Of a DNA stretch of 64,000 nucleotides, positions 19,940 to 39,899 are shown piece by piece (position 1 is the stretch's first letter; each line of letters starts with the position of its first letter). Under the pieces are notes generated by a model, which ran no database searches, was not told where the DNA came from, and saw nothing but the letters and a program-made list of their open reading frames with translations. The stretch comes from Chromobacterium haemolyticum. Lineage in GTDB: Bacteria; Pseudomonadota; Gammaproteobacteria; Burkholderiales; Chromobacteriaceae. Position numbers and translations under genes: made by a program. The stretch covers positions 1 to 64,000 of the forward strand of contig NZ_MUKU01000006.1 of the NCBI RefSeq assembly GCF_002081825.1. The letters are read 5' to 3'.

Positions 19940-20920
19940 ATGAAAACTGTTCTTGTTACCGGTGCAGATGGTTTTATTGGTTCCCATCTGACCGAGATGC
20001 TCGTGAAGCAGGGGTATAAGGTTAAGGCTTTATCGCAATACAATTCGTTCAATTACTGGGGCTGGCTGGAGGATGTAGATTGCCTTTCAGAAATTGAGGT
20101 GCTGAATGGCGATGTTCGTGATCCGCATTATTGTAAGCATATTACCAAGGAGGTGGATACGGTGTTCCATCTTGCTGCGCTGATTGCTATTCCTTACTCT
20201 TATGTAGCTCCTGACAGCTATGTGGATACCAACATCAAAGGCACGTTGAATATTTGTCAAGCAGCGTTGGATAACGGTGTTAGCCGAGTCATTCATACCT
20301 CGACCAGCGAGGTATACGGCACTGCGCGTTATGTGCCTATTGATGAAAATCACCCGCTACAACCTCAGTCGCCTTACAGCGCTTCGAAAATCGGTGCAGA
20401 TGCGATGGCGATGAGTTTCTATAATGCTTTCGATTTGCAGCTAACTATCGCCCGTCCATTTAACACCTATGGCCCCCGGCAATCTGCTCGGGCGGTAATA
20501 CCAACAATCATTAGCCAGATCGCTAGTGGTAAAAAGCAGATCCAGCTTGGGGATGTTACTCCTACCCGTGATTTTAATTATGTCGCAGACACTTGCCGTG
20601 GATTTATAGAGCTTGCGAATTGTGATAAGGCTATTGGCGAAACGATAAATATCGGTTCTAATTATGAGATATCGATAGGTGATACTCTTAAATTGATTCG
20701 CGAGCTGATGGGGAGTGATGTGGAATTTCTGGCTGATGAGCAACGTATTCGACCAGAAAAGTCGGAGGTTTTCCGCTTGTGGTGTGATAATGCAAAGATT
20801 CATGCCATGACGGGATTTGTGCCAAGCTATGATATTCGATCAGGACTGAAATCTACCATCGATTGGTTTGTCAATCCAGACAATCTGCGGAAGTATAAAA
20901 TCGATATTTACAACGTATGA
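19940..20920 (+). CDS. legB: Nucleotide-sugar 4,6-dehydratase, LegB type
   Basis: 326-residue extended SDR. TGADGFIGSH near the N terminus binds NAD, STSEVYG supplies the catalytic Ser/Thr-rich segment, and SPYSASKIGADAMA holds the YxxxK pair. The sequence is typical of the LegB group, which in Campylobacter acts on GDP-GlcNAc to give the 4-keto-6-deoxy sugar that starts legionaminic acid synthesis. The PtmE-like guanylyltransferase in the same operon supports a GDP-linked substrate; this is inference. The ATG at 19940 is preferred to an immediately preceding TTG. legC follows after 7 bp. Confidence 0.85.
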   Translation: MKTVLVTGADGFIGSHLTEMLVKQGYKVKALSQYNSFNYWGWLEDVDCLSEIEVLNGDVRDPHYCKHITKEVDTVFHLAALIAIPYSYVAPDSYVDTNIKGTLNICQAALDNGVSRVIHTSTSEVYGTARYVPIDENHPLQPQSPYSASKIGADAMAMSFYNAFDLQLTIARPFNTYGPRQSARAVIPTIISQIASGKKQIQLGDVTPTRDFNYVADTCRGFIELANCDKAIGETINIGSNYEISIGDTLKLIRELMGSDVEFLADEQRIRPEKSEVFRLWCDNAKIHAMTGFVPSYDIRSGLKSTIDWFVNPDNLRKYKIDIYNV

Positions 20921-20927
20921 GGTAGTT

Positions 20928-22070
20928 ATGATTGATGATCTTATTTGCTTTGTGCGCGATCAGTATCGTACTAAGGATTTCATACCACTTCATGCGCCAA
21001 TCTTTCGCGGTAGAGAGCGCGAGATGGTTCTCGATACCATTGAATCCACTTTTGTCTCCAGTGTCGGTGCCTATGTAGATCGATTTGAGATGGATATGGC
21101 CAGTTTCACGGGGAGTCCGCGAGCCGTTGCAGTAGTAAATGGGACTGCTGGATTGCATACTGCGCTTAAATTGGCAGGTGTATCGCAGGGGGATCTAGTT
21201 GTAACTCAATCTTTGACATTCGTGGCTACCTGTAATGCAATTGCTTACTGTGGAGCTGACGCATTATTTGTTGATGTTGACAAAGATACGTTAGGCATGT
21301 CTCCGACAGCCTTGGAAGCTTGGCTGTCGGAACATGCATTTATAGATGATGAGGGCAATTGTAGAACACGCGAAGGGCATCGTAGAATTAAATCGTGTAT
21401 TCCGATGCATACCTTTGGCCATCCTGTCGATTTGGATGCTTTAATTATTGTTTGTAAGCGCTGGAATCTCTTTCTTATTGAAGATGCTGCAGAGTCATTA
21501 GGTAGTTATTACAAAAATCAGCATACTGGTACGCTTGGTCAGATTGGTGTGTTGAGTTTTAATGGAAATAAAATCATGACTACCGGCGGCGGTGGCATGT
21601 TACTTACGAATGATATATTTGGAAAAAAAGCCAAGCATCTAACTACTACTGCGAAAATTCCACATCCATATGAGTTTTTTCATGATGAGATAGGGTATAA
21701 CTATCGGCTGCCTAACCTTAATGCTGCTCTTGGCTGTGCGCAATTAGAGCAGTTGCCATTTTTTCTGAAAGCAAAGCGTGAATTAGCTTCGAGATATATT
21801 GATTTTTTCCGCGGGATTGGTTTGCAGCCGATTGTTGAGCCCGAGGGATGTTGTTCAAATTACTGGCTTAATGGAGTGATTTGTTCAGACATTGAACAGA
21901 GAAATGTACTACTCAAGGCGACCAATGATGCTGGGGTTATGACGAGACCAATTTGGATGCTGATGAATCGGCTTCCGCAATTTGAAAGTACAATTATGGG
22001 TCCGTTGCCAAATTCTGAATGGTTGGCAGAGCGAGTGGTAAATTTACCTAGCAGTGTACCTCAATATTAA
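20928..22070 (+). CDS. legC: Nucleotide-sugar aminotransferase, LegC type
   Basis: 380-residue DegT/DnrJ/EryC1-family PLP aminotransferase that would place an amino group at C4 of the LegB product. The PLP-binding aspartate is in LIEDAAESLGS (Asp186) and the Schiff-base lysine in SFNGNKIMTTGGGG (Lys215). The N terminus FIPLHAPIFRGRE and the region around HTFGHPVDLD are characteristic of the LegC subgroup found beside LegB. The ATG at 20928 has GAGG just upstream, overlapping the legB stop. The gene is low in GC and in operon with its neighbours. Confidence 0.87.
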   Translation: MIDDLICFVRDQYRTKDFIPLHAPIFRGREREMVLDTIESTFVSSVGAYVDRFEMDMASFTGSPRAVAVVNGTAGLHTALKLAGVSQGDLVVTQSLTFVATCNAIAYCGADALFVDVDKDTLGMSPTALEAWLSEHAFIDDEGNCRTREGHRRIKSCIPMHTFGHPVDLDALIIVCKRWNLFLIEDAAESLGSYYKNQHTGTLGQIGVLSFNGNKIMTTGGGGMLLTNDIFGKKAKHLTTTAKIPHPYEFFHDEIGYNYRLPNLNAALGCAQLEQLPFFLKAKRELASRYIDFFRGIGLQPIVEPEGCCSNYWLNGVICSDIEQRNVLLKATNDAGVMTRPIWMLMNRLPQFESTIMGPLPNSEWLAERVVNLPSSVPQY

Positions 22071-22081
22071 GGAAAAATTAA

Positions 22082-22504
22082 GTGGGTATTTTTTTTGCTG
22101 ACAAATCAATTGATGATCTTGCCGTGGGGATGTCGGAATCGTATTCACAAACAATAACAGATTCTGATATAAAAGCATTTGCGGGATTGTCAGGTGATAG
22201 AAATCCTGTACATCTTGATGAAGATTTTGCTTCTAATTCACGTTTTAAAGGCCGTATAGCACACGGTTTTTTGTCTGCATCATTTTTTTCAGCAATTTTT
22301 GGAACTAAAATACCAGGTCCTGGTTGTGTATATGTATCGCAGTCACTCAATTTTAAACGTCCAGTTTATCTTAATGATACAGTGGTAGCAACTGTTACTG
22401 TCTCAGGGATAGATATAGAGCGGAGGCGGGTGACTTTCTTAACCTTATGCACTGTTCGTGGGAAAACCGTTATAGACGGGGTCGCCGAACTATTTATTCC
22501 CTGA
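22082..22504 (+). CDS. MaoC-like (R)-specific enoyl-CoA hydratase
   Basis: 140-residue single hot-dog-fold protein. GLSGDRNPVHLDEDFA contains the hydratase-2 motif with catalytic Asp and His, and RIAHGFLSASF completes it. Such enzymes hydrate short 2-enoyl-CoA to (R)-3-hydroxyacyl-CoA. A GTG start at 22082 has AAGGA 7 bases upstream. Placement between legC and a GNAT gene inside a nonulosonate operon suggests it may supply (R)-3-hydroxybutyryl-CoA for an N-acyl group. That role is inference; known nonulosonates do carry 3-hydroxybutyryl. A FabZ-like or non-catalytic role cannot be excluded. Confidence 0.8.
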   Translation: MGIFFADKSIDDLAVGMSESYSQTITDSDIKAFAGLSGDRNPVHLDEDFASNSRFKGRIAHGFLSASFFSAIFGTKIPGPGCVYVSQSLNFKRPVYLNDTVVATVTVSGIDIERRRVTFLTLCTVRGKTVIDGVAELFIP

Positions 22505-22511
22505 TTAAACC

Positions 22512-23309
22512 ATGAAGATAACATCTATTGCGAGTAAGAACGATTTGCTGTTCTTTCGGGAAGAAATTGAGGATTTGTTTTATTCTTGCTTTGGGCAGCG
22601 TTCTATAGGGGCTGTTTGGGACTGGGCGTACCTTGATAATCCAAACGGTGAACCAATCGTTACACTTTGCCATGATAACGAAAGGCTTGTTGGGCACTAT
22701 GCAATTGTTCCAATGCCGCTGAGTAACGCTTTTCAAAGTAAAAATTCATATATTTCAATGACGACTATGGTCGCTGAGTCTCATCGAAAGTTTGGCTTAT
22801 TTACTATGCTTGCACAAGCCTCTTATAGCCTGGCGGCTGAGAATGGTGTCGATTTTGTTTTTGGGTTTCCTAATGGTCAGTCGACGCCAGGATTCAGAAA
22901 GCGACTAAATTGGATGCTGCCAGAGTCGGACTATGTCGCTACTATCGATAAAAATGAGTTGGAGGCGTTTGTTAAGAAGGGGGGGGGTAAAAAGTATGAT
23001 CTTTTGGGCTTGAATCTCATGGATCAAAATATACGAGAGTGGCGACTATCTCGGCCAGGTGCCTTCTATCAATTTGAAAATGGTGTTGCGTTTAAGGTTC
23101 ATAATGATTCGTTAGATTTGCTTTGGTGGGAATCTCCTGAGTGTTTGTACTCTTTGCCGGATGATAAATTGATTAATTTCTTGGTTTTAGCAGATTCTGG
23201 GCTTCAGCGAAATATAGAGTTTGATTATCAATTCGGAGGGATTGGTCTTTGCTCTTCATTTGATGCTGCTGGGATCAATCGAGAGATGGCCATTTCTGAT
23301 TTGTTCTGA
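22512..23309 (+). CDS. GNAT-type acyltransferase in the nonulosonate operon
   Basis: 265 residues. The N-terminal half resembles GNAT acyltransferases: ERLVGHYAIVPMPL is followed by ISMTTMVAESHRKFGLFTML, an acyl-CoA-binding-like stretch, and then FVFGFPNGQSTPGF. The C-terminal part is unassigned. It lies 7 bp after the MaoC gene and 8 bp before legG, so it may transfer the acyl group made available by MaoC to an amino sugar or nonulosonate. It carries a run of nine G (22979-22987, encoding KKGGGKK), a slippage-prone tract. There is no close match to the LegH type known to me, so substrate is open. Confidence 0.65.
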   Translation: MKITSIASKNDLLFFREEIEDLFYSCFGQRSIGAVWDWAYLDNPNGEPIVTLCHDNERLVGHYAIVPMPLSNAFQSKNSYISMTTMVAESHRKFGLFTMLAQASYSLAAENGVDFVFGFPNGQSTPGFRKRLNWMLPESDYVATIDKNELEAFVKKGGGKKYDLLGLNLMDQNIREWRLSRPGAFYQFENGVAFKVHNDSLDLLWWESPECLYSLPDDKLINFLVLADSGLQRNIEFDYQFGGIGLCSSFDAAGINREMAISDLF

Positions 23310-23317
23310 GCTAGATT

Positions 23318-24490
23318 ATGAAACGAATATTGGGTATGACTTCCATTAGGTCCGATTATGATCTAATGAGCGGTGTTTATCGCAGATTAAGCCAAGAGCC
23401 AGACGTAGATTTTAAGGTTTTGGTTTCGGGTGCTCATTTGTCGGCTCAGTATGGGTATTCCATTGATCTAATTAAAAATGATGGCTTGGATATTCTTGCT
23501 GATGTAGAGACTTTAATAAATGGTGACAGCAAGGCTGCTCGATTGAAAACAGCTTCGGGGCTGCTGAGCGGAGCGCTAGATTTGGTGAAAAATTTTCACC
23601 CTGATGTGTTGATTTATGCCGGTGACCGCGAGGATGTTCTTATCGGAGCAATGCTGGGGGCATTTCTCGATATTCCAACGGTTCACTTTTTTGGGGGGGA
23701 TCATGCCGCTGATGGGCATGTTGATAATCCAGTTCGGCATGCGACATCGAAGCTTTCGACTGCGCACTTTGTTAGCATTCAAGAGCATGCCAATCGATTG
23801 GCGTGCCTGGGTGAGGATATGAGTCGCGTTTTCGTTATTGGGAGTGTCGCGTTGGATAAGTTCGTTGCGGAGCCTCGACTCGATAGAGACGCAACACTAT
23901 CTGGTATAGGTGCTAAATCGCATGCCTTCCAGGGCCCCCCCCTCGCGATCCTAATTTTTCATCCTGTTGATCAGGAACGCCAATTGGCCCCTAGCTATGT
24001 TCGTGATGCGACTGAAATACTCATTGAGCGTGGATTTCATGTCTTGATTGGTGCTCCAAATGCGGACCCTGGAAATGCTCCGCTATTGAAAACAATGCAC
24101 GAATTAGCCCGAGTTCCTGAGGTAACTTTCTACGGTAATATGGCACGGTTACACTTTGTGAATTTGATGCGTCATGCAGCATTGATGGTTGGTAACTCGT
24201 CAGCAGGAATACTAGAGGCGGCTTCAGTTGCTTTGCCCGTAATTAATTTAGGTGAGCGCCAGCGTGGTCGTCTTTGCGGTCAAAATGTTATTTTTTGCGA
24301 TGGAGATCCTGAATCCATTACAAAGGCTCTCAGTCGTATTAGTGATGATGGGTATACAGCGGCAATGCACGGGATCGTAAATCCTTATGGTGATGGTCAC
24401 AGCGAGGCTCGCGCAGTGGATCTGCTTAAGAGGCTCGATTTTGCTTCCATATTCAAAAAAACAGAGGATCCTCTGTATGTTCACTCCTGA
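23318..24490 (+). CDS. legG: Hydrolysing NDP-N-acetylamino-sugar 2-epimerase, LegG/NeuC type
   Basis: 390-residue GT-B-like epimerase. Features include the N-terminal MTSIRSDYDLMSGVYRRL, IYAGDREDVLIGAMLG, VHFFGGDHAADGHVDNPVRH and MVGNSSAGILEAASV, the hallmarks of NeuC-like hydrolysing 2-epimerases. In legionaminate synthesis this enzyme releases 2,4-diacetamido-2,4,6-trideoxymannose from the nucleotide sugar. The G7 run at 23693-23699 and the C8 run at 23935-23942 sit in the reading frame, which is intact. It overlaps the start of the deacetylase gene by 14 bases. Confidence 0.87.
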   Translation: MKRILGMTSIRSDYDLMSGVYRRLSQEPDVDFKVLVSGAHLSAQYGYSIDLIKNDGLDILADVETLINGDSKAARLKTASGLLSGALDLVKNFHPDVLIYAGDREDVLIGAMLGAFLDIPTVHFFGGDHAADGHVDNPVRHATSKLSTAHFVSIQEHANRLACLGEDMSRVFVIGSVALDKFVAEPRLDRDATLSGIGAKSHAFQGPPLAILIFHPVDQERQLAPSYVRDATEILIERGFHVLIGAPNADPGNAPLLKTMHELARVPEVTFYGNMARLHFVNLMRHAALMVGNSSAGILEAASVALPVINLGERQRGRLCGQNVIFCDGDPESITKALSRISDDGYTAAMHGIVNPYGDGHSEARAVDLLKRLDFASIFKKTEDPLYVHS

Positions 24491-25160
24491 ACCCAAAATC
24501 ATTGCTGTAGTGGCTCCACATCCTGATGACGAAACACTTGGTTGTGGGGGAACGATACTCAAGCACGTCGCACGTGGCGATCGCGTGCACTGGATTATTT
24601 TTACAAGTATTTCGACCGGGCAAGGCTTTACTGAGGAGCGCGTACGATCTCGAGAAGATGAGATTGAACGAGTTTCGAAAGCCTATGGTTTTCACGATGT
24701 TCATCGATTTTCTTTTGCTAGTATGCAGCTGGATCAATTGCCAAAATCAGATCTTGTTGGCACTCTAGGAGGGCTAATAAAGAAGCTCGGTGTTCAAACA
24801 CTATATGTGCCATACCGCAATGATGCCCATAGTGATCATGCAGCTGTTTTTGATGCATGCGCTTCTTGTTCCAAATCATTTCGTTATCCTTCTGTTACAT
24901 CCGTGCGAGTTTACGAAACTCTGTCAGAAACTGAATATGGCCTGAAACCTGAGGATCCAGGGTTTCGGCCTAATTTGTTTATAGATATCGCTGACTTTAT
25001 CGATAAAAAACTCGAGATTATGAGTTTTTATGCTGGCGAAATGGCTGAATTTCCCTTCCCTCGCAGCGAAGTCACACTACGAGCCTTGTCACAGCTACGA
25101 GGAAGTCAATGCGGAGCAAATGCAGCCGAAGCTTTCATGCTTCTGAAGGAGATTGAGTGA
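24477..25160 (+). CDS. LmbE/PIG-L-family zinc-dependent deacetylase
   Basis: 227 residues. The APHPDDETLGCGG motif (zinc-binding His and Asp-Asp) and YRNDAHSDHAAVFDAC (second histidine motif) define the LmbE-like/PIG-L superfamily, which removes N-acetyl groups from sugars. The ATG at 24477 overlaps the end of legG; longer in-frame starts lie deep inside legG. The operon position between legG and legI suggests it deacetylates a 2,4-diamino-sugar intermediate or the final nonulosonate, making room for another acyl or an acetamidino group. This is an inference from context; such an enzyme is not part of the core legionaminate pathway. Confidence 0.82.
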   Translation: MFTPEPKIIAVVAPHPDDETLGCGGTILKHVARGDRVHWIIFTSISTGQGFTEERVRSREDEIERVSKAYGFHDVHRFSFASMQLDQLPKSDLVGTLGGLIKKLGVQTLYVPYRNDAHSDHAAVFDACASCSKSFRYPSVTSVRVYETLSETEYGLKPEDPGFRPNLFIDIADFIDKKLEIMSFYAGEMAEFPFPRSEVTLRALSQLRGSQCGANAAEAFMLLKEIE

Positions 25161-26230
25161 AATCGAACTATGTCTATATAATTGCAGAGGCTGGTGTCAA
25201 TCATAATGGTAGTCTTGAGCTGGCACGCAAACTGGTAGATTGTGCAGCTATGGCAGGCGCAGATGCTGTTAAATTTCAAACGTTTGATGCAAAAAAATTA
25301 GCTACTAATTCGGCTCCAAAAGCAAGTTATCAAAAAAAGACTACAGATGCATCAAAATCCCAGTTGGAGATGTTACATAAGCTCGAGTTGCCACGTGATT
25401 GGCATCATGAGCTGCGTGAGTATGCCTATACGAAAGGTATCCAGTTTTTATCTACGGCTTTTGACATTGGCAGCCTTCACTTTTTAGAAGGGCTTGATAT
25501 GCCCTTTTATAAGGTTCCGTCTGGAGAGCTAACTAATGGGCCATTGCTTTGGCAGTTCGCTCGGCAGCGTCGGCCTCTGGTAGTTTCAACGGGCATGGCG
25601 ACGATTTCAGAAGTAGAGCAGGCGTTGGCGGTCATTGCGCATGCTTTTAACGTCGATCGGGAGCCGCTGAGCGAGGCGGAAGTATGGGAGGGGTGGAGCA
25701 AACCGGCTTGGCGTGAGTCCTTACAGGGGCGAGTGACGCTACTGCATTGTACATCGCAGTATCCTACGCCGATGGCTGAAGTCAATCTAAAAGCCATGGA
25801 TTCCTTGTGTGTTTTTGGACTCCCAGTTGGTTATTCCGATCACACAGAAGGTGTCCTGATTCCTGCGGCGGCTGTTGCTCGAGGAGCAGTTCTGATAGAA
25901 AAGCATTTTACGTTGGACCGTTCCCTGCCAGGTCCGGATCACCGAGCTTCACTGGAGCCTGATGAGTTGGCACTTATGGTGAGCCAGATTCGTCAGCTGC
26001 AAGATGCTATGGGAGATGGGGCCAAGTGTCCTCAGCCCAGTGAATGGAGTTCGCGTCAGGCTGCTCGCCAGCAAGTTGTGGCGGCCAGGGCGATCGAAGA
26101 GGGAAGTATCCTGACACGTGATGATTTAACGACTTCGCGCTGCGGCAGAGGCATGATGCCAAATGTTCTCTGGGAATTGGTTGGCTTGCGTTGTCCGCGC
26201 GCATATGAACAAGGCGAAGTTATTGAGTGA
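25157..26230 (+). CDS. legI: Legionaminic/nonulosonic acid synthase (NeuB family)
   Basis: 357-residue enzyme that condenses phosphoenolpyruvate with an amino-sugar to form a nine-carbon acid. The N terminus IAEAGVNHNGSLELARKLVD, the FYKVPSGELTNG and STGMATISE blocks, GYSDHTEG, and the C-terminal SAF (antifreeze-like) domain from about residue 290 are all present. The GTG start at 25157 overlaps the previous stop, with AAGGAG upstream. The GYSDHTEG and IEKHFTLDR motifs are shared by NeuB, LegI and PseI; LegI is inferred from the legB/legC/ptmE neighbours. It overlaps the next gene at a TGATG junction. Confidence 0.9.
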   Translation: MKSNYVYIIAEAGVNHNGSLELARKLVDCAAMAGADAVKFQTFDAKKLATNSAPKASYQKKTTDASKSQLEMLHKLELPRDWHHELREYAYTKGIQFLSTAFDIGSLHFLEGLDMPFYKVPSGELTNGPLLWQFARQRRPLVVSTGMATISEVEQALAVIAHAFNVDREPLSEAEVWEGWSKPAWRESLQGRVTLLHCTSQYPTPMAEVNLKAMDSLCVFGLPVGYSDHTEGVLIPAAAVARGAVLIEKHFTLDRSLPGPDHRASLEPDELALMVSQIRQLQDAMGDGAKCPQPSEWSSRQAARQQVVAARAIEEGSILTRDDLTTSRCGRGMMPNVLWELVGLRCPRAYEQGEVIE

Positions 26231-26871
26231 TGAGTGTTCCTTCTATTATTGTTGTCGGCGCCGGCGGACATGCTGTTGCAGTGGCTGATGCGCTCCTGGC
26301 GCAAGGACGGTCGGTAAAGGGGTTTATTGACCCGGCTATTTCTATGAAAAACCGTTCTTTTTGTGGGTTACCCGTACTCGGTGGCGACGAAATTCTTGAG
26401 CAGTACAACAGTTCAGAAGTAATGCTGGTAAACGGAATCGGTGGAGTTGGGAGTACTCAAGTTAGAATGCGAGTGCAAAATCGCCTTCAGGACTTGGGGT
26501 GGAAGTTTGACGGAGCTATTCATCCCTCAGCGCTTATATCGCCGTTTGCAAAAATCGACTCAGATGTTCAAATATTGGCCCGTGCGGTAGTACAACCCAA
26601 TGCACGTATTGAGACTGGTTGTATTGTTAATACCGGCGCGATTATTGAGCATGATGTATATCTCGGTGCTTGGACACATGTGGCTCCTGGAGCCATAATC
26701 TGTGGCGGCGTTCAAGTGGCTGAAGGTTGCCATGTGGGAGCCGGCGCGATCATGAAGCAAGGAATAAGGCTTGGTTCACAGACAGTGGTGGGTGCAGGTG
26801 CTGTTGTTGTACGTCCTTTTGAGGGATGTGGAACTTTGGTGGGTGTCCCGGCCCATAAGTTGGAGGTCTGA
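26230..26871 (+). CDS. PglD/NeuD-like hexapeptide-repeat acyltransferase
   Basis: 213 residues. The N terminus IIVVGAGGHAVAVADALL is the sugar-binding Rossmann-like domain of PglD/NeuD proteins. The C-terminal half is a left-handed beta-helix of hexapeptide repeats (for example GCIVNTGAIIEHDV) ending in GVPAHKLEV. Members N-acetylate UDP-4-amino sugars or O-acetylate sialic acids. In this operon it is the best candidate for the 4-amino N-acetyltransferase (LegH role), with O-acetylation as alternative. The ATG at 26230 overlaps the legI stop; the next gene starts immediately after. Confidence 0.82.
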   Translation: MSVPSIIVVGAGGHAVAVADALLAQGRSVKGFIDPAISMKNRSFCGLPVLGGDEILEQYNSSEVMLVNGIGGVGSTQVRMRVQNRLQDLGWKFDGAIHPSALISPFAKIDSDVQILARAVVQPNARIETGCIVNTGAIIEHDVYLGAWTHVAPGAIICGGVQVAEGCHVGAGAIMKQGIRLGSQTVVGAGAVVVRPFEGCGTLVGVPAHKLEV

Positions 26872-27921
26872 ATGACACGTTGGGAGAAAGCGCTAATCAG
26901 TCCGGAAAGCACTTTGCGCGAAGCGCTGGAGCGGATAGATTCTTGTGGATGCCAAATGGCATTGGTAGTCGACGACTCGCGTAAATTATTGGGGATGTTA
27001 ACTGATGGGGATGTGCGTAGGGCATTGTTAAAGGGTACGTCTCTCACAGACTTGGCCTCAAGTGTTATGAGGACTCGTCCGCATTGTGTCCATGTAGGAG
27101 ACGATCGCGGTACAATTTTAGCCTTAATGCATGAACTCGGAGTTCATCACATTCCTGTTCTCGATGCCAACGATGTTATCGTTGATCTCGAAATGGTTGA
27201 AGATTTTTTGTTGCCAAGAGTGCGTGATGAGTGGGTGATTGTAATGGCTGGAGGTTTAGGAACTCGCCTCGAGGATCTGACGAGAGATACTCCTAAGCCA
27301 ATGCTTAAGGTTGGTTCTAGGCCTTTGCTCGAAACTATTGTTCACAATTATGCGGATCAAGGTTTTAGAAAATTTTACTTCGCGGTTAACTACAAGGCCG
27401 AACAGATAGAGGCTTATTTCGGCGATGGCACAGAATTAGGTCTTGAGATTCGATATCTCAGGGAAAACAAGAGAATGGGTACTGCAGGGGCTTTGACATT
27501 GCTGCCTGAAAAACCTAATGCACCGATTATTGTTACGAATGCCGATTTACTGACTAAGCAAGACTTTGGACAAATGATGGATTTGCATATTGCCTCCCGT
27601 GCTGATGCGACAGTTAGCGCGCGCGATTATGAAATACAAGTTCCATTTGGAGTGATTTGTGAGTCTGGTGGTCGAATGCAGGGTATACAAGAAAAGCCAA
27701 CCCATAGTTTTAACGTTAGTGCGGGCGTGAATATTCTGTCTCCTAATGTTCTGAATCTGATTCCAAAAGACACATTCTTTGATATGCCATCGCTATTTGA
27801 AGCGATGATGAGCCAAAGCTTGCATGTCCGAGTCCATAAATTTAATGGCTATTGGTTAGATATCGGGCGGTTAACTGATTATGAAAAAGCTAATTTAGAT
27901 TTTGAAAGGGAGTTCTATTGA
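26872..27921 (+). CDS. ptmE: CBS-domain nucleotidyltransferase, PtmE-like GlcN-1-P guanylyltransferase
   Basis: 349 residues. The first ~115 contain two CBS repeats (QMALVVDDSRKLLGMLTDGD; VHHIPVLDANDVIVDLE). The remainder is a nucleotidyltransferase with MAGGLGTRLEDLTRDTPKPM, RMGTAGALTLL and FNGYWLDIGRLTDYEKA. This CBS-plus-transferase architecture is that of Campylobacter PtmE, which makes GDP-glucosamine for legionaminic acid. Its presence argues that the pathway uses GDP rather than UDP carriers. The start directly abuts the previous stop codon. Confidence 0.85.
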   Translation: MTRWEKALISPESTLREALERIDSCGCQMALVVDDSRKLLGMLTDGDVRRALLKGTSLTDLASSVMRTRPHCVHVGDDRGTILALMHELGVHHIPVLDANDVIVDLEMVEDFLLPRVRDEWVIVMAGGLGTRLEDLTRDTPKPMLKVGSRPLLETIVHNYADQGFRKFYFAVNYKAEQIEAYFGDGTELGLEIRYLRENKRMGTAGALTLLPEKPNAPIIVTNADLLTKQDFGQMMDLHIASRADATVSARDYEIQVPFGVICESGGRMQGIQEKPTHSFNVSAGVNILSPNVLNLIPKDTFFDMPSLFEAMMSQSLHVRVHKFNGYWLDIGRLTDYEKANLDFEREFY

Positions 27922-27923
27922 GC

Positions 27924-28847
27924 ATGCTTTCAAAAAAAAATTGCTTAGTGGTTGGTTATGGATCAATTGGCTCTCGGCATTCACGCATTCTCCAGGAGTT
28001 AGGCTGCGATGTTGCGGTCGTCAGTCGGCGTGTTCAAGTTGGTCTGAATGCCTATGCGAGTATTGATGAGGCAGTAAGGCGGTATCAACCAGAGTATGTA
28101 GTGATAGCGAATGAAACAGCTTTACACCATGATGCATTGATTCAACTGATCAATGCGGATTATCAAGGGGCCGTTTTAATGGAAAAACCCTTGTTTGATT
28201 CTTCGCGGAAGGTTCCAAGTCATAAATTCAATAAATTGAGGGTTGCATACAATCTGAGGTTTCACCCGGTTCTTGTACGTCTAAAGTCATTGTTGGCTGG
28301 GCAGAGTGTTTTATCAGTTCATAGCTATGTTGGGCAGTATCTTCCAAACTGGCGGCCTGGAACTGATTATAAACAGTCATATTCAGCCCGGTCTGATATG
28401 GGGGGCGGAGCCTTACTCGATCTGAGCCATGATTTAGACTATTTAATATGGATGTTGGGTGATTGGGTGCAAGTCTCCGCACTTGGTGGGCACATGAGTG
28501 CGCTTGAGATAACAAGTGATGATTTATTTAGTATGCTTATAAGGTTCTCGCATTGCCCCGTTGCGGCGATTCAGCTCAACTATCTGGATCGTAGAGGACG
28601 GCGAGGGATTGTAGTCAATACTGCTGAAAACACCTACGAAGCAGATCTGATTGGAAATAGACTGATTATAGATGCAACTGAAGAATTGTTTTCCGTTGAG
28701 AGGGATGATGCCTACCGCCTTATGCATTTAGCTATGCTTGGGGTTGGCGAGGATTTTAGTTGCACAATTGAGGAAGCAATGACGACCCTGCATCTTATTG
28801 ATGCATCCCGGCAGTCTTCCCATAAAAGTGAATGGATAACAAGATGA
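27924..28847 (+). CDS. Gfo/Idh/MocA-family oxidoreductase in the legionaminate cluster
   Basis: 307 residues from ATG 27924; a TTG at 27918 with closer GGGAG is a possible alternative. The N-terminal LVVGYGSIGSRHSRIL binds NAD(P), AVLMEKPLF holds the EKP catalytic motif, and GGALLDLSHDLDYLIWMLG matches the C-terminal family block. Similar oxidoreductases accompany ptmE/ptmA in Campylobacter flagellin-glycan loci. The reaction is unknown; sugar dehydrogenation or reduction is expected. It overlaps legF by an ATGA junction. Confidence 0.78.
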   Translation: MLSKKNCLVVGYGSIGSRHSRILQELGCDVAVVSRRVQVGLNAYASIDEAVRRYQPEYVVIANETALHHDALIQLINADYQGAVLMEKPLFDSSRKVPSHKFNKLRVAYNLRFHPVLVRLKSLLAGQSVLSVHSYVGQYLPNWRPGTDYKQSYSARSDMGGGALLDLSHDLDYLIWMLGDWVQVSALGGHMSALEITSDDLFSMLIRFSHCPVAAIQLNYLDRRGRRGIVVNTAENTYEADLIGNRLIIDATEELFSVERDDAYRLMHLAMLGVGEDFSCTIEEAMTTLHLIDASRQSSHKSEWITR

Positions 28848-29566
28848 AGCAGATTTGTACTATTTGCGCCCGGGGAGGGTCTAAAGGTGTAAAAGGTAAG
28901 AATTTCAGGCTGCTACTAGGAAAGCCACTAATCGCATATAGTATTGAGCAGGCTCGTGCGTCAGATCAGTTTGATGTAATTGCAGTTAGTAGTGACTCGG
29001 AACATATCTTAAATGTTGCGCTAGAATATGGCGCAGATATTTTAGTAAAACGTCCAGATGAGTTGGCTACAGATAGGGCAGCAAAACTACCAGTAATAAG
29101 GCATTGCGTAGAAGAGGCAGAACGAATTTCCGGCCAGGTATTTGATGTCTGTGTTGATTTGGATGCAACTTCACCCCTTCGCTCAATCGATGATATCAAG
29201 CGGGCAGTTGAAATGCTAAAGTCACATAATGGGCTGAATGTTATCACTGCAATGCCTGCTAGGAGGTCTCCATATTTTAATTTGATTGAAGTTTTGAATG
29301 ATGGAACACCGCGGCTAAGTAAAGTATTGGATCAAGCTATTGTACGTAGACAAGATGCTCCCGCATGTTTTGACATGAATGCGTCTATTTATGTTTGGAC
29401 TAGAGAAACTCTATTTTCAGAATTGGGGCTATTTAATGAAGGGACTAAATTGTATGTGATGCCAGAAGAGCGTTCAATCGATATTGACTCTGAAAATGAT
29501 TTTCTTTTTGTTGAGTTCCTGATGAAGCATACATGGGAGAAATCACAAGGAGGCAAAAGTGAGTGA
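28844..29566 (+). CDS. legF: CMP-nonulosonate cytidylyltransferase (LegF/NeuA family)
   Basis: 240 residues. The N-terminal ICARGGSKGVKGKNFRLLLGKPL is the CTP-binding signature of CMP-sialate synthetases, followed by DLDATSPLRSIDD and SIDIDSENDFLFVE near the C terminus. It should activate the nonulosonic acid to its CMP form for transfer. The start used is the ATG overlapping the previous stop codon; an ATG four codons earlier (28832) is also open. The LegF/PtmB assignment over NeuA rests on the operon context. Confidence 0.87.
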   Translation: MKQICTICARGGSKGVKGKNFRLLLGKPLIAYSIEQARASDQFDVIAVSSDSEHILNVALEYGADILVKRPDELATDRAAKLPVIRHCVEEAERISGQVFDVCVDLDATSPLRSIDDIKRAVEMLKSHNGLNVITAMPARRSPYFNLIEVLNDGTPRLSKVLDQAIVRRQDAPACFDMNASIYVWTRETLFSELGLFNEGTKLYVMPEERSIDIDSENDFLFVEFLMKHTWEKSQGGKSE

Positions 29567-30350
29567 TATTATGCAAGAGCGACCTCTTAGTCATAAAGTC
29601 GTAGTCGTAAGCGGCGGAGCCGGTTTGCTAGGGCGTACTTTCAGTTTCTCTATTGCTGCTGCTGGCGGCATAGTTGTGGTAGCGGACATTAAATTAGAAA
29701 ATGCTCAGCTAGTAGCAAACGAAATTTGTGCGGAATACCCTGATCGTGCTCTCGCCATAGAACTGGATATTACTAGTAAAGAGTCGATTGCTAAGGCAAT
29801 TACGCTAGTGTGTGAAAAGTTTGGTACGATAGATGCTGTTGTGAACAATGCTTACCCTCGTAATACAAATTATGGTAGGCAAGTCGAAGATGTAACTTAT
29901 GAAGATTTTTGTCAGAATTTAGGGTTACATGCAGGTGGGTATTTTCTTGTAATGCAGCAGTTCTCTGCCTACTTTAGTTTACTGGGACATGGAAATATCA
30001 TAAATATTTCATCCATTTATGGGGTAATTTCTCCTCGTTTTGAAGTTTACGAGGGAACGACCATGACAATGCCGGTTGAATATGCGGCCATAAAGGCAGG
30101 TGTGATTCACTTAACAAAGTACTTTGCACAATACCTGAAAGGTAAGAATGTGCGCGTGAATGCTATTAGTCCTGGTGGTGTTCTAAATCAGCAACCTGAA
30201 GTTTTTCTAAATAAGTATAAAATGTATTGTAGTAGCAAGGGGATGCTAGAGCCCAGCGATATAGCAGGTGTTCTGCTATTTTTATTGTCGGATTCTTCTC
30301 ATTATTTGACAGGGCAAAACATCATTGTGGATGATGGTTTTTCACTTTAA
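29559..30350 (+). CDS. ptmA: Short-chain dehydrogenase/reductase, PtmA-like
   Basis: 263-residue classical SDR. VSGGAGLLGRTF resembles the glycine-rich cofactor loop, DAVVNNAYPRNT holds the NNA motif, INISSIYG is the serine block and EYAAIKAGVIHLTK gives the YxxxK pair. The end SSHYLTGQNIIVDDGFSL is SDR-typical. Homologues (PtmA) are found next to ptmB/legF in legionaminate loci; the exact reaction is unsettled. The GTG at 29559 has AAGGAGG just upstream. It overlaps legF by 8 bases. Confidence 0.78.
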   Translation: MSDIMQERPLSHKVVVVSGGAGLLGRTFSFSIAAAGGIVVVADIKLENAQLVANEICAEYPDRALAIELDITSKESIAKAITLVCEKFGTIDAVVNNAYPRNTNYGRQVEDVTYEDFCQNLGLHAGGYFLVMQQFSAYFSLLGHGNIINISSIYGVISPRFEVYEGTTMTMPVEYAAIKAGVIHLTKYFAQYLKGKNVRVNAISPGGVLNQQPEVFLNKYKMYCSSKGMLEPSDIAGVLLFLLSDSSHYLTGQNIIVDDGFSL

Positions 30351-30373
30351 AATAAATTATTAAAGTAATAAAT

Positions 30374-31348
30374 ATGTATAATATTGCCGTTGTTGGTGCT
30401 GGACAGCTGGGCAGCCGACATCTCCAAGGTTTGCTGAAGTTGGATTTGAGGTGTCAATATTTTGTCACGGATCCTTCCGAGAATTCTTTGAAGGTTACCC
30501 AGAGCAGGGTTGCTGAACTGGGAATGCCTGAAAATTCTTTTAAAATTACTTACACAACCACACAAAGTGAGTTGCCAGAGCATCTCGACTATGTGGTAGT
30601 TGCTACTACCGCGGATGTTCGTCTTGAGGTGTTGAAGAATTTGCTTGGCAAGCATTCAGTTGGCAATTTGCTTCTTGAAAAAGTTCTCTTTCAGTATACA
30701 GATGACTACGAGGTTGCCGCAGAGTTAATTCATAAATCAGGCACCAAGGCTTGGGTAAATTGTCCTCGGCGTGCATTCCAGATATACCAGGATGTGCGCA
30801 ATTTTTTTGCAAATCAAAATTTACTGCATTTCCATGTGCATGGAGGAGATTGGGGACTCGGATGTAATAGTATTCATTTTTTGGACTTGCTTGAATACCT
30901 AACTGATGAAGCTCCGAGCAAGCTATCAACCTCTGGATTAGATCGCTCTTTGATTGCAAGTAAGAGGGAAAATTTTTATGAATTTACAGGGTCGCTGAGG
31001 GGATTTAGTGGTGCAGCATCTTTTGAGATTACATCATTAGCATCATCAAAAGCACGGTTGATGGTTTTATTGCGTTCAGAAGAACGAACCTGTCTAATTG
31101 ATGAAGCAGCTGGTCAAGCTTTTTTCTATGATATCAGATCACCCCAATCTTGGCTTCAAAAGGAGTTCAAGAGCCCGCTATTGAGTGAGCAGATTACAAG
31201 TATTGCTAGAGAAACCTTAGTCAATACATGTACATCACTGACTGATTTTGATAAGTCTGTTCAAATTCACTTGCCACTCATCAGTGCGTTGGGAGCTCAC
31301 GCTGCAGAAATACTGCGCACATCTGAAGATTTTTGTCCAATAACATAA
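30374..31348 (+). CDS. Gfo/Idh-like oxidoreductase with altered EKP motif
   Basis: 324 residues. IAVVGAGQLGSRHLQGL is a typical nucleotide-binding start and VVVATTADVRLEVL follows the family pattern. The usual EKP catalytic motif reads LLLEKVLF here, with valine for proline. HVHGGDWGLGCNSIHFLDLLEYL resembles the C-terminal block. It lies 23 bp after ptmA and 15 bp before a second oxidoreductase. It may modify the nonulosonate or another sugar. It is clearly different in sequence from the oxidoreductases at 27924 and 31364. Confidence 0.7.
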   Translation: MYNIAVVGAGQLGSRHLQGLLKLDLRCQYFVTDPSENSLKVTQSRVAELGMPENSFKITYTTTQSELPEHLDYVVVATTADVRLEVLKNLLGKHSVGNLLLEKVLFQYTDDYEVAAELIHKSGTKAWVNCPRRAFQIYQDVRNFFANQNLLHFHVHGGDWGLGCNSIHFLDLLEYLTDEAPSKLSTSGLDRSLIASKRENFYEFTGSLRGFSGAASFEITSLASSKARLMVLLRSEERTCLIDEAAGQAFFYDIRSPQSWLQKEFKSPLLSEQITSIARETLVNTCTSLTDFDKSVQIHLPLISALGAHAAEILRTSEDFCPIT

Positions 31349-31363
31349 TTTTACTGCTTAACT

Positions 31364-32323
31364 ATGAATACATTGAATATTTGGCTTGTTGGTGCAGGTG
31401 GAATGGCTGTCGATTATGTTAAAGTCCTGAACGACTTAGAGGCCACTGTTACAATTATTGGTCGAGGTGAGGAGTCGGCTCGGCGTATGGAGGAGAAATG
31501 CGGCATACCTGTCGTGCGTGGTGGGCTTGAAGCATTTTTGAAAAATACCACTACTATCCCTGATGCTGCTATTGTCGCGGTAGGTGTAGAAGGACTTGCT
31601 TGTACTGCGATGCAATTGATTGAGGCTGGCGTTAAGCGTGTTCTCTTAGAGAAGCCTGGTGCATTATATTACTCTGAATTACAAGCACTGCATCAACGAG
31701 CGGAAAAATTTAATGCGGAAGTAAAAATTGCTTACAATCGAAGAATGTATTCTTCGGTATTAACTGCTCGGAAAATGATCGAAGAGGATGGTGGTGCCCA
31801 ATCGATGCATTTTGAATTTACTGAATGGGGGCATGTTATAGAAGCATTGACTAAAGCTCCTGGTGTTAAGGAAGCGTGGTTGCTAGGGAACTCAACTCAT
31901 GTAATTGATTTGGCATTCTATCTGGGGGGGGTACCAATTGAGTTGTACAATTTGAATAATGGCAGTCTGTCTTGGCATCCAAGCTCTTCTGTTTTCGCTG
32001 GCGCGGGGAAAACTGATCGAGGAGTTTTATTTTCGTATAATGCAAATTGGGATGCGCCGGGTCGTTGGGGACTTGAAATTCTTACTTCACAAAGAAGATA
32101 TATTTTCCGCCCAATGGAGTCGTTACAAATTATGAAACGTGGCTCAATCGAGATAGTCCCGGTTGAGATTGATAGTGTAGAAGATATAAATTTTAAACCA
32201 GGTTTGTATAATCAAGTACAGGAATTCCTTTCGGTTGAAGGTAGTATTGGTCTTTGCTCGCTTAAAGAGCAATTAGAGATGTGGCCCATCTATGAAAAAA
32301 TTGCCGGTTATGTGAGAGGGTGA
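31364..32323 (+). CDS. Gfo/Idh/MocA-like oxidoreductase
   Basis: 319 residues. WLVGAGGMAVDYVKVL is the N-terminal nucleotide-binding loop, VLLEKPGAL the EKP motif, and STHVIDLAFYLGGVP the family C-terminal block with a catalytic-type histidine. A run of eight G (31924-31931) lies in the codons for GGV and is slippage-prone. The gene follows the other oxidoreductase closely and overlaps the SGNH hydrolase start. Function is unknown; a role in tailoring the nonulosonate is inferred from operon membership. Confidence 0.72.
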   Translation: MNTLNIWLVGAGGMAVDYVKVLNDLEATVTIIGRGEESARRMEEKCGIPVVRGGLEAFLKNTTTIPDAAIVAVGVEGLACTAMQLIEAGVKRVLLEKPGALYYSELQALHQRAEKFNAEVKIAYNRRMYSSVLTARKMIEEDGGAQSMHFEFTEWGHVIEALTKAPGVKEAWLLGNSTHVIDLAFYLGGVPIELYNLNNGSLSWHPSSSVFAGAGKTDRGVLFSYNANWDAPGRWGLEILTSQRRYIFRPMESLQIMKRGSIEIVPVEIDSVEDINFKPGLYNQVQEFLSVEGSIGLCSLKEQLEMWPIYEKIAGYVRG

Positions 32324-33009
32324 TGTCACTATCATCTCTGTCCGCTCATGAAAATGCAGAGCAGCCTTATATTCTTATATTTACTGATTCACTAGGGTTT
32401 CCTCGGTCTGAGCCTGAGATGGTTCGCTATGAAGAAACATATGTAGCGTTGTTGAAAGTTAATTTTCCTGACTATGATTTTATTCATGTTGGCAGGGGGG
32501 GCGCTACGATAGTTGATCTCTATAAGCATACGAACTACTTTCATGGCACGATTAAGCCCGCACTGGTGTTGATCCAGTGCGGTATTGTGGATTGTGCACC
32601 ACGAGCACTTAAGCTGGTTGAGCAGCAAATCATTTCAAGAGTGCCGGTGTTCGGTTCATTGATTGGTCGTATTGTGAAGCGTTATGCGAAATCTATTCGA
32701 CGGTGGAGAAAGATAAGCTATACCCCCCTCTCCATCTTTGTTGAATATAAGAACCGTTTTGAATTAATTTTTCCCAATATTTATTGGATAGAAATTTTAC
32801 CTGCGGTTGATGAGTATGAAACTTCGATTGATGGGATATCAAAAAATATTCGCCAATACAATGAAGTTCTTGCTCGTGGAAACTCTATTTGTACTAACGA
32901 CTTTTCAGGCGAACAGATTATGTCAGATTACCATCACTTGAATACTGACGGACATAGGAAAATGTTTGAAAAAATATCTTGCTTAATTTATAGCCAGATT
33001 TCGCGATAG
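32323..33009 (+). CDS. SGNH/GDSL-type hydrolase-like protein
   Basis: 228 residues without a clear signal peptide. LIFTDSLGFPR corresponds to block I, with the nucleophile Ser in a TDS rather than GDS context. GRGGATIVD, QCGIVDCAPR and the DYHHLNTDGH block with Asp and His complete an SGNH-like set. Members are esterases, or O-acetyl transferases/esterases acting on glycans. As last gene of the nonulosonate part, it could handle O-acyl groups; this is context only. A G7 run lies at 32495-32501. The ATG at 32323 overlaps the previous stop. Confidence 0.62.
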   Translation: MSLSSLSAHENAEQPYILIFTDSLGFPRSEPEMVRYEETYVALLKVNFPDYDFIHVGRGGATIVDLYKHTNYFHGTIKPALVLIQCGIVDCAPRALKLVEQQIISRVPVFGSLIGRIVKRYAKSIRRWRKISYTPLSIFVEYKNRFELIFPNIYWIEILPAVDEYETSIDGISKNIRQYNEVLARGNSICTNDFSGEQIMSDYHHLNTDGHRKMFEKISCLIYSQISR

Positions 33010-38625: not shown

Positions 38626-38684
38626 CTAATTATTATTGAAGTTGTCTCTGTCGTCGTTTATCAAAGGCAAATTAGGTATAACAA

Positions 38685-39872: not shown

Positions 39873-39899
39873 AGTCGGTTGTTTTTATGGTGAAATGCT

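Follow-up and report, generated by a model that had tools for sequence, protein, structure and literature searches.

A legionaminate-series O-antigen operon of Chromobacterium haemolyticum with a putative acyl-exchange cassette and a paired set of oxidoreductases

The analysed stretch of 64,000 nucleotides (the window) contains an operon of 15 genes (19940-33009), all on the + strand, closely packed with intergenic gaps of -16 to +23 bases, and with all 15 reading frames intact (Table 1). Every gene named in an earlier sequence-only reading was found in its place and on the + strand. LegB, LegC, LegG and LegI, which it had called recognisable, each score above the NCBIfam cut-off, while PtmE (CBS plus nucleotidyltransferase), LegF (cytidylyltransferase), the SDR, the three Gfo/Idh oxidoreductases, MaoC (PF01575), GNAT (PF13527) and PIG-L/LmbE (PF02585) pass those of Pfam; the tight, often overlapping gene order is likewise as it described. 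The NeuD-type acetyltransferase was absent from its gene list. In 2-kb steps, the GC content falls to 37-49% at 20-48 kb, compared with 55-64% outside, and this drop fits an acquired island.

Table 1. Genes of the operon and the remainder of the O-antigen cluster in the window
Feature	Position	Strand	Profile match or content
legB, NAD-dependent 4,6-dehydratase	19940..20920	+	TIGR04180, 522.7 bits (cut-off 475)
legC, PLP aminotransferase	20928..22070	+	TIGR04181, 509.9 bits (cut-off 420)
MaoC-type (R)-specific enoyl-CoA hydratase	22082..22504	+	PF01575, 87.3 (cut-off 27)
GNAT N-acyltransferase	22512..23309	+	PF13527, 31.6 (cut-off 25)
legG', divergent hydrolysing 2-epimerase	23318..24490	+	TIGR03568, 341.6 bits (cut-off 235.9)
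LmbE/PIG-L N-deacetylase	24477..25160	+	PF02585
legI, nonulosonate synthase	25157..26230	+	TIGR03569, 453 bits (cut-off 399.65)
NeuD-type hexapeptide acetyltransferase	26227..26871	+	TIGR03570, 206.9 bits (cut-off 160.8)
ptmE, CBS + sugar-1-phosphate nucleotidyltransferase	26872..27921	+	PF00483, PF00571; position as in Plesiomonas
ptmF, Gfo/Idh oxidoreductase, proposed 8-keto reductase	27918..28847	+	PF01408, PF22725
legF, CMP-nonulosonate synthetase	28832..29566	+	PF02348, 79.5 bits (cut-off 22.6)
ptmA-like SDR, proposed C8 dehydrogenase	29559..30350	+	NF006619, 346.4 bits (cut-off 255)
Gfo2, first paired Gfo/Idh oxidoreductase	30374..31348	+	PF01408
Gfo3, second paired Gfo/Idh oxidoreductase	31364..32323	+	PF01408
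SGNH/GDSL-type hydrolase	32320..33009	+	weak PF00657, E=0.0047, below cut-off
Rest of O-antigen cluster	35801..48217	+	Wzx, Wzy, unknown gene (38685-39872), WbuX-HisH-HisF acetamidino module, FnlA-FnlB-FnlC (L-FucNAc), glycosyltransferase, Und-P sugar transferase

With LegB, LegC, LegG and LegI above curated cut-offs and a 4-N-acetyltransferase and CMP-synthetase beside them, the operon has the content of a legionaminate cluster, the roles being assigned by homology only. LegB is 84-87% identical to the copies in the clusters of Roseateles, Parvibium and Janthinobacterium. The NeuD-type protein is probably the 4-N-acetyltransferase, the LegH role; a NeuD homologue has been proposed for the 4-N-acetylation step in L. 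pneumophila, and that of Plesiomonas is named LegH in the accessible part of its description (PMC4481668). LegF does not reach the cut-off of the PseF model (134.3, cut-off 205.7), nor does the SDR reach that of the PtmA model NF050062 (267.9, cut-off 350). The presence of PtmE, PtmF and PtmA corresponds, by gene content, to the GDP-linked route of the C. jejuni type. PtmF is flanked by ptmE and legF, an order also seen in Plesiomonas and in two E. coli clusters, and the other PtmA-bearing loci have PtmF in 17 of 20 cases and a class-III aminotransferase in 3. A Gfo/Idh protein and an SDR thereby flank the CMP-synthetase (PtmF-LegF-PtmA), an arrangement that we read as defining an 8-epilegionaminate module.

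The view that most of the additional genes lie outside the established pathway does not hold. PtmA, PtmF, PtmE and a NeuD-type LegH are part of the Plesiomonas shigelloides cluster legB-legC-legG-legI-legH-ptmE-ptmF-legF-ptmA, the core genes of which have the same relative order as in the window (PMC4481668, accessible part), and counterparts of all four also occur in an E. coli cluster whose flippase is of the O108 family. In the E. coli O108-type cluster L049, legC, neuC, neuB, neuD, ptmE, Gfo/Idh, legF and SDR follow in order, with Wzx, Wzy and fnlABC after the SDR as in the window (identity 29% for PtmF and 42% for PtmA). Its first gene, annotated as UDP-GlcNAc 4,6-dehydratase, matches FnlA and not LegB, and the cluster has no match to GNAT, LmbE, MaoC, Gfo2, Gfo3 or SGNH. 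Compared with the P. shigelloides and C. jejuni pathway, the window adds precisely these six genes and its LegG is divergent; beyond the published legionaminate set there are two modules (MaoC-GNAT-LegG'-LmbE and Gfo2+Gfo3) plus the SGNH gene. A similar principle applies to the lga/ela/aci genes of Acinetobacter baumannii, where the exchange or addition of a few genes yields acyl and epimer variants: lgaABCHIFG leads to 7-N-(R)-3-hydroxybutanoyl Leg, elaABC to 8eLeg and aciABCD to Aci (PMC9676051, PMC5595891, accessible parts). Unlike in the window, however, the variation there lies in an acyltransferase and the synthase, and the accessible part of PMC3628348, the source for this, makes no mention of a deacetylase.

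The best solved relatives of MaoC include two (R)-specific enoyl-CoA hydratases, 5cpg (3.5e-29) and 1iq6 (8.6e-24), and the stretch GDRNPVHLD is common to MaoC and 5cpg in the alignment. Like PhaJ, the protein combines the MaoC fold family with a conserved D..NP.H stretch, which we take to be catalytic, and it is a probable source of (R)-3-hydroxyacyl-CoA. No counterpart was found in any other mapped locus, the other GNAT clusters (L031, L036, L063, L104 and L113) included. The GNAT has relatives in Massilia agilis (L036, 51%), L104, L113 and L063 (31%), and a more distant one in L031; a class-level search gave matches in 8 of 369 genomes, extending over most of the length only in the window and in G137. 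It adjoins MaoC in the window and a 3-hydroxyacyl-CoA dehydrogenase (PF02737) in one other cluster, L063, which has GNAT and LmbE and no match to LegG of either kind.

In LmbE, the HPDDE and HSDH stretches are conserved in 6/6 cases. PF02585 and the HPDDE stretch are shared with the PIG-L deacetylases BshB and MshB. A thiol-pathway deacetylase of this kind was rejected as an identification, the scores with BshB1, BshB2 and MshB (49.2, 34.5 and 20.1) being far below the cut-offs (182.5, 195.25 and 224.35). Unlike those enzymes, the LmbE type of the window is tied to NulO clusters: in 399 genomes of the order, scoring the best seven LmbE and the best five LegI candidates at most per genome, all 15 places found are NeuB/PseI clusters. 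The 14 places outside the window all have a GNAT, formyltransferase or WbqC, as against 1/34 (strict) or 5/34 (relaxed) LmbE-negative loci, an association that was spotted before being tested and that was scored with HMMs for the acyl-adding enzymes and an LmbE profile built partly from the loci under test. All six LmbE-positive Leg loci of the order sample have NeuD. In eight LmbE clusters (L166-L173) the neighbours include a formyltransferase or WbqC, while L060, a plasmid locus outside the order search, has LegG' and LmbE with an ATP-grasp gene instead, no GNAT, WbqC or formyltransferase match being found. We propose a group of NulO-cluster N-deacetylases, characterised in the order search by a NeuB/PseI cluster and an adjacent acyl-adding enzyme.

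In the clusters of the closest kin, legC and legI are separated by an ordinary legG. A divergent LegG' is present instead in the window, Massilia agilis and other genomes, together with a PIG-L-type deacetylase and often a GNAT. LegG' of the window is 61% identical to that of M. agilis and 28-30% to legG of five otherwise similar clusters (28-34% when both proteins are compared with these five). For most shared genes the window is nearest to Roseateles/Parvibium and M. agilis to Janthinobacterium, and in the LegI tree the window groups with Roseateles (98/80), which is without the cassette, and Massilia with Janthinobacterium (98/91). The LegG tree (43 rows) has one LegG' clade of 9 (support 100/99), all from LmbE-bearing clusters and each beside LmbE; two clusters with LmbE and formyltransferase have ordinary LegG, and eight with GNAT or WbqC have LegG'. 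Among 25 Leg loci in the order, LmbE occurs in 5/5 with LegG' and 1/20 without (Fisher p=1.1e-4). What these computations reveal is a cassette swap. The unusual N-acyl substituent suggested by the sequence-only reading gains from this, as LmbE and the LegG variant, in some cases joined by GNAT, recur as a module for which a non-acetyl N-acyl group is the best reading. Its expectation that the extra genes accompany the core genes elsewhere is borne out for LmbE, GNAT, Gfo2, Gfo3 and SGNH and fails for MaoC.

We hold with roughly even confidence that the product is a CMP-activated legionaminate-series nonulosonic acid, made by an acyl-exchange cassette set upon the core pathway and destined for an O-antigen in which L-FucNAc, or the acetamidino form of it, would also occur; we infer each step of the chemistry, the nature of the acyl group, the assignments to C5 and C8, and what Gfo2 and Gfo3 do. 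LegB, LegC, NeuD (4-N-acetyl), LegG', LegI and LegF would constitute the core, with PtmE supplying the nucleotide sugar. LmbE would strip one N-acetyl group and GNAT would install a different acyl. The likeliest candidate is 3-hydroxybutanoyl, drawn from a CoA thioester that the MaoC (R)-hydratase would supply. The 3-hydroxyacyl reading is suggested by the (R)-enoyl-CoA hydratases nearest to MaoC and by the PF02737 dehydrogenase beside the L063 GNAT; as MaoC was not found in the other GNAT clusters, the case for this acyl depends on two neighbours that differ in kind. LegG' may be a 2-epimerase form tolerating the bulkier acyl, and the exchanged nitrogen is probably the GlcNAc-derived one (C5 of the product), as NeuD is retained. 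PtmA and PtmF probably invert C8, although the accessible part of the Plesiomonas paper puts PtmA in the GDP-GlcNAc step (PMC4481668). Several observations speak against the mechanism: LegI would be expected to meet the new acyl group and does not track the cassette, L060 combines LegG' and LmbE with none of the three acyl-adding enzymes, and L063 combines GNAT and LmbE with no LegG match.

An unlikely alternative is that the acyl group is exchanged downstream of LegI, at C5 or C7 of the nonulosonate in its free or CMP-bound state, LegG' being carried along only because the cassette moves as one block between legC and legI. LegI indeed shows no clear correlation with the cassette (the tree has 8 label changes, and 40/500 shuffles give no more than that), and LmbE is found alongside ordinary LegG in L105 and L066 and also in the clusters read as pseudaminate-type (L166-L173), but LegG' forms one clade limited to LmbE-positive clusters despite differing gene order (L031, L060, L110, L111, L127), which is more than block transfer alone predicts. 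The intact, tightly packed reading frames and the restriction of the LmbE type to NulO clusters at 15/15 places weigh against a plain di-N-acetyl (8-epi)legionaminic acid, with MaoC, GNAT and LmbE as relics or serving another molecule; we consider this quite improbable, even though the gene set of the E. coli cluster with the O108-family flippase stops at PtmA and 8-epilegionaminic acid is reported from the O108 O-antigen. PtmE takes GlcN-1-P as a substrate. That LmbE supplies GlcN-1-P or GDP-GlcN for PtmE, with GNAT restoring the acetyl of an ordinary product, is highly improbable, as LmbE occurs in eight clusters (L166-L173) in which PtmE matches do not exceed 100 bits and the neighbours include formyltransferase or WbqC. 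In its favour, GDP-GlcNAc is the product of the first pathway segment, and an N-acetyltransferase, GlmU, connects this segment to the second (PMC4481668, accessible part).

For the second module, a Gfo2 match lies beside Gfo3 in 15/15 loci on genome contigs, 11 of them with Leg genes. Invariant residues are E102-K103, H168 and D171 in Gfo2 (16 rows) and E96-K97-P98, H179 and D182 in Gfo3; the models have pLDDT values of 92.9 and 92.2, that of Gfo2 being similar to Gfo/Idh folds including RgNanOx and YjhC. Since these two remaining Gfo/Idh proteins occur as a pair, a better reading of the oxidised substituent proposed before is an oxidation with a subsequent reduction, leaving an inverted carbon: Gfo2 and Gfo3 would be a second dehydrogenase/reductase pair acting on the same sugar, probably inverting C4 or C8. 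Nearly as probable as not is that they act at C8, in place of PtmF/PtmA or alongside them and whether or not C7 is inverted too, leaving C4 untouched and giving another known Leg epimer. In several loci, LegF and Gfo2-Gfo3 are present but PtmF and PtmA have no match (L041, L044, L047 on a short contig, L127, L164), and 8eLeg, Aci and 8eAci of A. baumannii are reached by different genes added to lgaA-F (PMC9676051, PMC5595891, accessible parts); yet PtmF and PtmA are both retained in eight Gfo2/Gfo3 loci other than that of the window, where the two pairs would duplicate each other at C8.

As a long shot, NulO pathways might share an exchangeable step in which the LmbE subfamily would remove the GlcNAc-derived N-acetyl, with interchangeable partners (GNAT with MaoC or 3-hydroxyacyl-CoA dehydrogenase; formyltransferase; WbqC plus methyltransferase) and a dedicated LegG' for bulky acyls. 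The window would combine this acyl exchange with inversion of C8 (PtmA/PtmF) and C4 (Gfo2/Gfo3), giving 4,8-di-epi-legionaminic acid with a 5-N-3-hydroxybutanoyl group. This stereoisomer is absent from those named in the accessible parts of the literature consulted. As far as we found, the open-access literature offers no explanation for the origin of non-acetyl groups at C5 of pseudaminic and legionaminic acids, and in it PIG-L, LmbE or WbqC were not found named alongside both. Plug-in genes with acyl-adding enzymes that vary across bacteria suggest how sialic-acid-like sugars may come to be chemically so varied, in a way open to testing, and a NulO-linked deacetylase with interchangeable partners would bring formyl, 3-hydroxybutanoyl and other variants under one hypothesis that can be assayed. 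The LmbE type may serve as a gene marker predicting clusters that make non-acetyl variants, LegG' and LegG are a natural pair to probe the acyl selectivity of 2-epimerases, and the joint inheritance of Gfo2 and Gfo3 suggests a nonulosonate inversion that is as yet uncharacterised.

The SGNH protein has no Pfam match at E 0.001, so that its identification relies on motifs recognised by eye and on its conserved position, the gene following Gfo3 also in L030, L034, L035, L036 and L045. The protein resembles a hydrolase, and the O-acylated substituent of the sequence-only reading gains no support. In the same five loci the order from Wzx to FnlA is identical to that in the window, and one of these relatives is from another phylum.

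The operon comprises 15 genes, all on the plus strand between 19940 and 33009 with intergenic gaps of -16 to +23 bases, and GC content is 37-49% at 20-48 kb versus 55-64% outside (2-kb steps). The idea that all three Gfo/Idh oxidoreductase genes are extra to the legionaminate (Leg) pathway was not borne out, the first of them being PtmF. One region of Table 5 of a Plesiomonas paper lists GlmU, PtmA, LegF, PtmF (an oxidoreductase), PtmE, LegH (a NeuD homologue), LegI, LegG, LegC and LegB (PMC4481668), and from PtmA on this is the order of the window in reverse, apart from the window's added genes. The order acetyltransferase-nucleotidyltransferase-Gfo/Idh-cytidylyltransferase-SDR found in the window recurs in two E. 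coli clusters, of which one has an O108-family flippase, and a NeuD-type protein of L. pneumophila has been proposed as the acetyltransferase for diNAc-bacillosamine (PMC3766260). The stretch 30374-33009 has no E. coli homologues at the DNA level. Among phage matches to PtmA, the best 20 of 70 records were all below 37% identity and were read as generic SDRs. A 16S search of the assembly gave no SSU match.

Features of the operon, its 3' neighbourhood and related loci
Feature	Sequence	Position	Strand	Remark
legB, legC, maoC, gnat, legG', lmbE, legI, neuD, ptmE, ptmF, legF, ptmA, gfo2, gfo3, sgnh	window	19940-33009	+	gene order; families by Pfam and NCBIfam
gfo2, gfo3	window	30374-32323	+	paired Gfo/Idh oxidoreductases
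sgnh	window	32320-33009	+	probable hydrolase gene
Integrase-core transposase gene	window	33441-34409		3' of operon
DDE transposase gene	window	34576-35433		3' of operon
Conserved gene	window	38685-39872		between Wzy and WbuX
Second NeuB-family gene	window's genome	G000:C67:160347-161264
Class-III aminotransferase	L104	13163-14551
Class-III aminotransferase	L110	2484-3773
Class-III aminotransferase	L113	4648-7104

A LegI profile search of 399 genomes of the window's order, scoring at most 5 candidates per genome, found 64 matching genomes (E 1e-40 or better), that of the window among them. Outside the window, the 40 best LegI regions (down to E 3.5e-61), which came from 38 of the 63 other matching genomes, were mapped by HMMs; LegI and LegC score thresholds kept 25 as core loci, and the 15 left out were read as mostly pseudaminate (Pse)- or Neu-type. 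The core loci contained PtmA in 9 cases, PtmF and LmbE in 6 each, and GNAT, Gfo2, Gfo3 and SGNH in 2 each, while MaoC was mapped in none (0/25); LmbE, GNAT, Gfo2, Gfo3 and SGNH were all absent from the HMM maps of the other 15. LmbE was present in 5/5 loci with LegG', the divergent hydrolysing 2-epimerase, versus 1/20 without it (p=1.1e-4). The reverse search of the same genomes, with a profile built from six LmbE proteins of nonulosonate clusters and at most 7 candidates scored per genome, gave 15 places at E 1e-20 or better, every one (15/15, the window's included) with a NeuB/PseI-family gene in the locus. The window's genome also holds a second NeuB-family gene, about 40% identical over two stretches.

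Unassigned frames near LmbE were listed and scanned for families, and HMMs were then built from these. In tests that were post hoc and partly circular, as models and tests share loci, a GNAT, WbqC or formyltransferase was found in 14/14 LmbE-bearing loci versus 1/34 LmbE-free loci by a strict count (p=3e-11) or 5/34 by a relaxed one (p=2e-8), and the 40-locus set alone gave 6/6 versus the same 1/34 or 5/34. The 14 genomes are spread over 13 different families, and the midpoints of partner and LmbE lie 0.3-3.6 kb apart in all 14 (a second partner in locus L171, a WbqC, is 5.8 kb away). Near LmbE, the family scan placed WbqC in L110, L127 and L170, a methyltransferase in L110, L168 and L170, a formyltransferase in L066 (and, just below the cut-off, in L171), its C-terminal family in L166, L171, L172 and L173, a 3-hydroxyacyl-CoA dehydrogenase in L063 and an ATP-grasp protein in L060. 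The eight loci L166-L173, in which LegI and LegC match more weakly and the dehydratases are FnlA-like, are read as pseudaminate-type. A WbqC-family protein near LmbE, usually with a methyltransferase, was seen in L110, L111, L127 and L167-L170, which include Leg-type clusters and clusters read as Pse-type. An apparent LmbE-formyltransferase fusion in L105 (a 532-aa frame) was rejected: the LmbE match covers residues 312-531, and the formyltransferase is in a separate frame just upstream.

In pairwise comparison, the window and Roseateles share 87% identity in LegB, 75% in LegC, 77% in LegI and 66% in Gfo3, yet only 30% in LegG; Janthinobacterium and Massilia share 74% in LegC and 77% in both LegI and PtmE, yet 31% in LegG; and the window and Massilia share 61% in LegG, 60% in LmbE and 51% in GNAT. 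On these values an ordinary legG between legC and legI therefore appears to have been swapped for a GNAT-LegG'-LmbE cassette on two branches. Massilia agilis has this cassette, with no MaoC seen, and Janthinobacterium PC23-8 has the cluster but lacks the cassette. A few genes depart from the pairing (window Wzy 31% to Roseateles vs 70% to Parvibium; Massilia WbuX closest to the plasmid). In the 45-row LegI tree Roseateles is the partner of the window (98/80) and Janthinobacterium that of Massilia (98/91), and the LmbE label takes 8 changes, a number as low in 40/500 shuffles. In the LegG tree (43 rows), the 9 LegG' rows form one clade (100/99), every row coming from an LmbE-bearing cluster, with GNAT as partner in 5, WbqC in 3 and neither in 1; L105 and L066, where LmbE accompanies a formyltransferase, fall in the ordinary-LegG part. 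Alignments A6 and A7 were made without plasmid rows, and A7 also without the Roseateles locus L033 (X residues).

As to the acyl group, the MaoC protein is closest among solved structures to (R)-specific enoyl-CoA hydratases, and 7 bases separate the end of its gene from the GNAT gene; in L063 the GNAT adjoins a 3-hydroxyacyl-CoA dehydrogenase instead. Because both kinds of enzyme yield 3-hydroxyacyl-CoA, their place beside GNAT points to a 3-hydroxyacyl group. Known bacterial structures include 8eLeg and FucNAm in P. aeruginosa O12, Pse with 5-hydroxybutyryl and 7-formyl groups in P. aeruginosa strain 1244, and an 8-amino, 3-hydroxybutyramido nonulosonate in Tenacibaculum. With a free 4-amine on the LegC product, a new acyl at C7 would require no deacetylase, and A. 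baumannii, which is reported to make Leg with a 7-N-(R)-3-hydroxybutanoyl group, uses another acyltransferase and synthase for it. A deacetylase would be needed for a change of the GlcNAc-derived N-acyl, which would be C5 of the product. NeuD is kept in 6/6 LmbE-bearing Leg loci of the order sample, and removal of the acetyl it adds would amount to a futile cycle; because of this, and because C7 would need no deacetylase, we favour exchange at C5. Among the open-access papers listed, none bore on a described deacetylase step, PMC3438082 gave no match for deacetylase and related terms, and no open-access paper was found that joined PIG-L, LmbE or WbqC with both pseudaminic and legionaminic acid; the step may be published elsewhere.

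A Gfo3 search gave 15 loci in genome contigs and 4 plasmid records, three of which were examined, and the relatives' loci were mapped with 26 window proteins. The order Leg genes-Gfo2-Gfo3-SGNH-Wzx-Wzy-orf-WbuX-HisH-HisF-FnlA is common to a Sphingomonadaceae plasmid (L030), Parvibium (L034), Janthinobacterium (L035), Massilia agilis (L036, which begins within legC) and Mucilaginibacter (L045), a member of another phylum; L033 has this order too, but with no match for SGNH or Wzx. In L045 (Bacteroidota) the O-antigen gene order of the window comes with identities of 53% for Wzy, 64% for WbuX and 59% for FnlA, a likeness that suggests transfer between phyla. SGNH, at 57%, is near Wzy and WbuX in this comparison and unlike Gfo2 (32%), NeuD (31%) and PtmE (33%), but LegB (61%) and LegC (57%) are equally high, so the contrast is not clean. 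We count SGNH, whose protein has no Pfam name at E 0.001, with the polymer genes, as a probable O-acyl esterase or transferase.

SGNH and Wzx adjoin in L034 and other relatives; in the window two transposase genes (33441-35433) separate them, followed by Wzx, Wzy, an unknown gene, WbuX-HisH-HisF, FnlA-FnlB-FnlC, a glycosyltransferase and an Und-P sugar transferase. WbuX and HisH exceed their cut-offs (264 vs 203.2 for TIGR03573; 210.7 vs 105.4 for TIGR01855), HisF and FnlA-C are named from matches to annotated relatives, and Wzy, without a Pfam match at E 0.001, from position and relatives. The conserved gene between Wzy and WbuX has no Pfam match and 28-47% identity among relatives, and is possibly a glycosyltransferase. 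L164, L037 and L046 have a HisF/HisH pair and a weak WbuX match shortly before Gfo2, because of which the nonulosonate of these clusters may bear an acetamidino group.

A Gfo2 match adjoins Gfo3 in 15/15 genome-contig loci (weak in L037, partial in L040), with Leg genes in the fetched DNA of 11; that of L038, L039, L040 and L042 held none, L040 and L042 being near contig ends. Within the order, Gfo3 reached 1e-20 in five places: LegF is present too in four of them (the window, L127, L164, L165), and the fifth, L113, has no LegF match but does have PtmA, PtmE, NeuD and LegI. At class level 23/369 genomes matched, four (the window among them) better than 1e-20; G060 and G149 have Leg genes, and G342 none of LegI, LegF and PtmE within the 12 kb fetched. 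Alignment A1 (Gfo3) omits L047 (partial) and L066 and L067 (27%-identity loci), and A2 (Gfo2) omits L032, L037 and L040 (weak or partial), L005/L065 and L066. Both proteins keep the family-typical lysine and histidine positions, and their predicted models (pLDDT 92.2 for Gfo3, 92.9 for Gfo2) are Gfo/Idh folds. Structural matches to Gfo2 include RgNanOx and YjhC, which are reported to act at C4 of a sialic acid; the folds listed for the pair belong to Gfo/Idh enzymes in general, with 9-19% identity, and give a weak clue to the position of action.

Leg has free secondary hydroxyls at C4 and C8 only. PtmF and PtmA could account for inversion at C8, because they are the only such oxidoreductases seen in an E. 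coli O108-type cluster and the O108 O-antigen is reported, in a reference title, with 8-epilegionaminic acid (PMC3628348). Giving C8 to PtmF and PtmA would leave C4 for Gfo2 and Gfo3 where all four genes occur, and 4-epimerisation is our guess. Against a C8 role of PtmA, the Plesiomonas paper places it in the GDP-GlcNAc step (PMC4481668). A class-III aminotransferase, detected with a model built from two of the three loci, lies near PtmA in 3/20 PtmA-bearing loci (L104, L110 and L113), with PtmF absent (2) or divergent (1); such an arrangement fits a shared 8-keto intermediate, and these clusters may make an 8-amino nonulosonate. In L104 and L110 the aminotransferase gene sits between LegF and PtmA; L113 has no LegF match.
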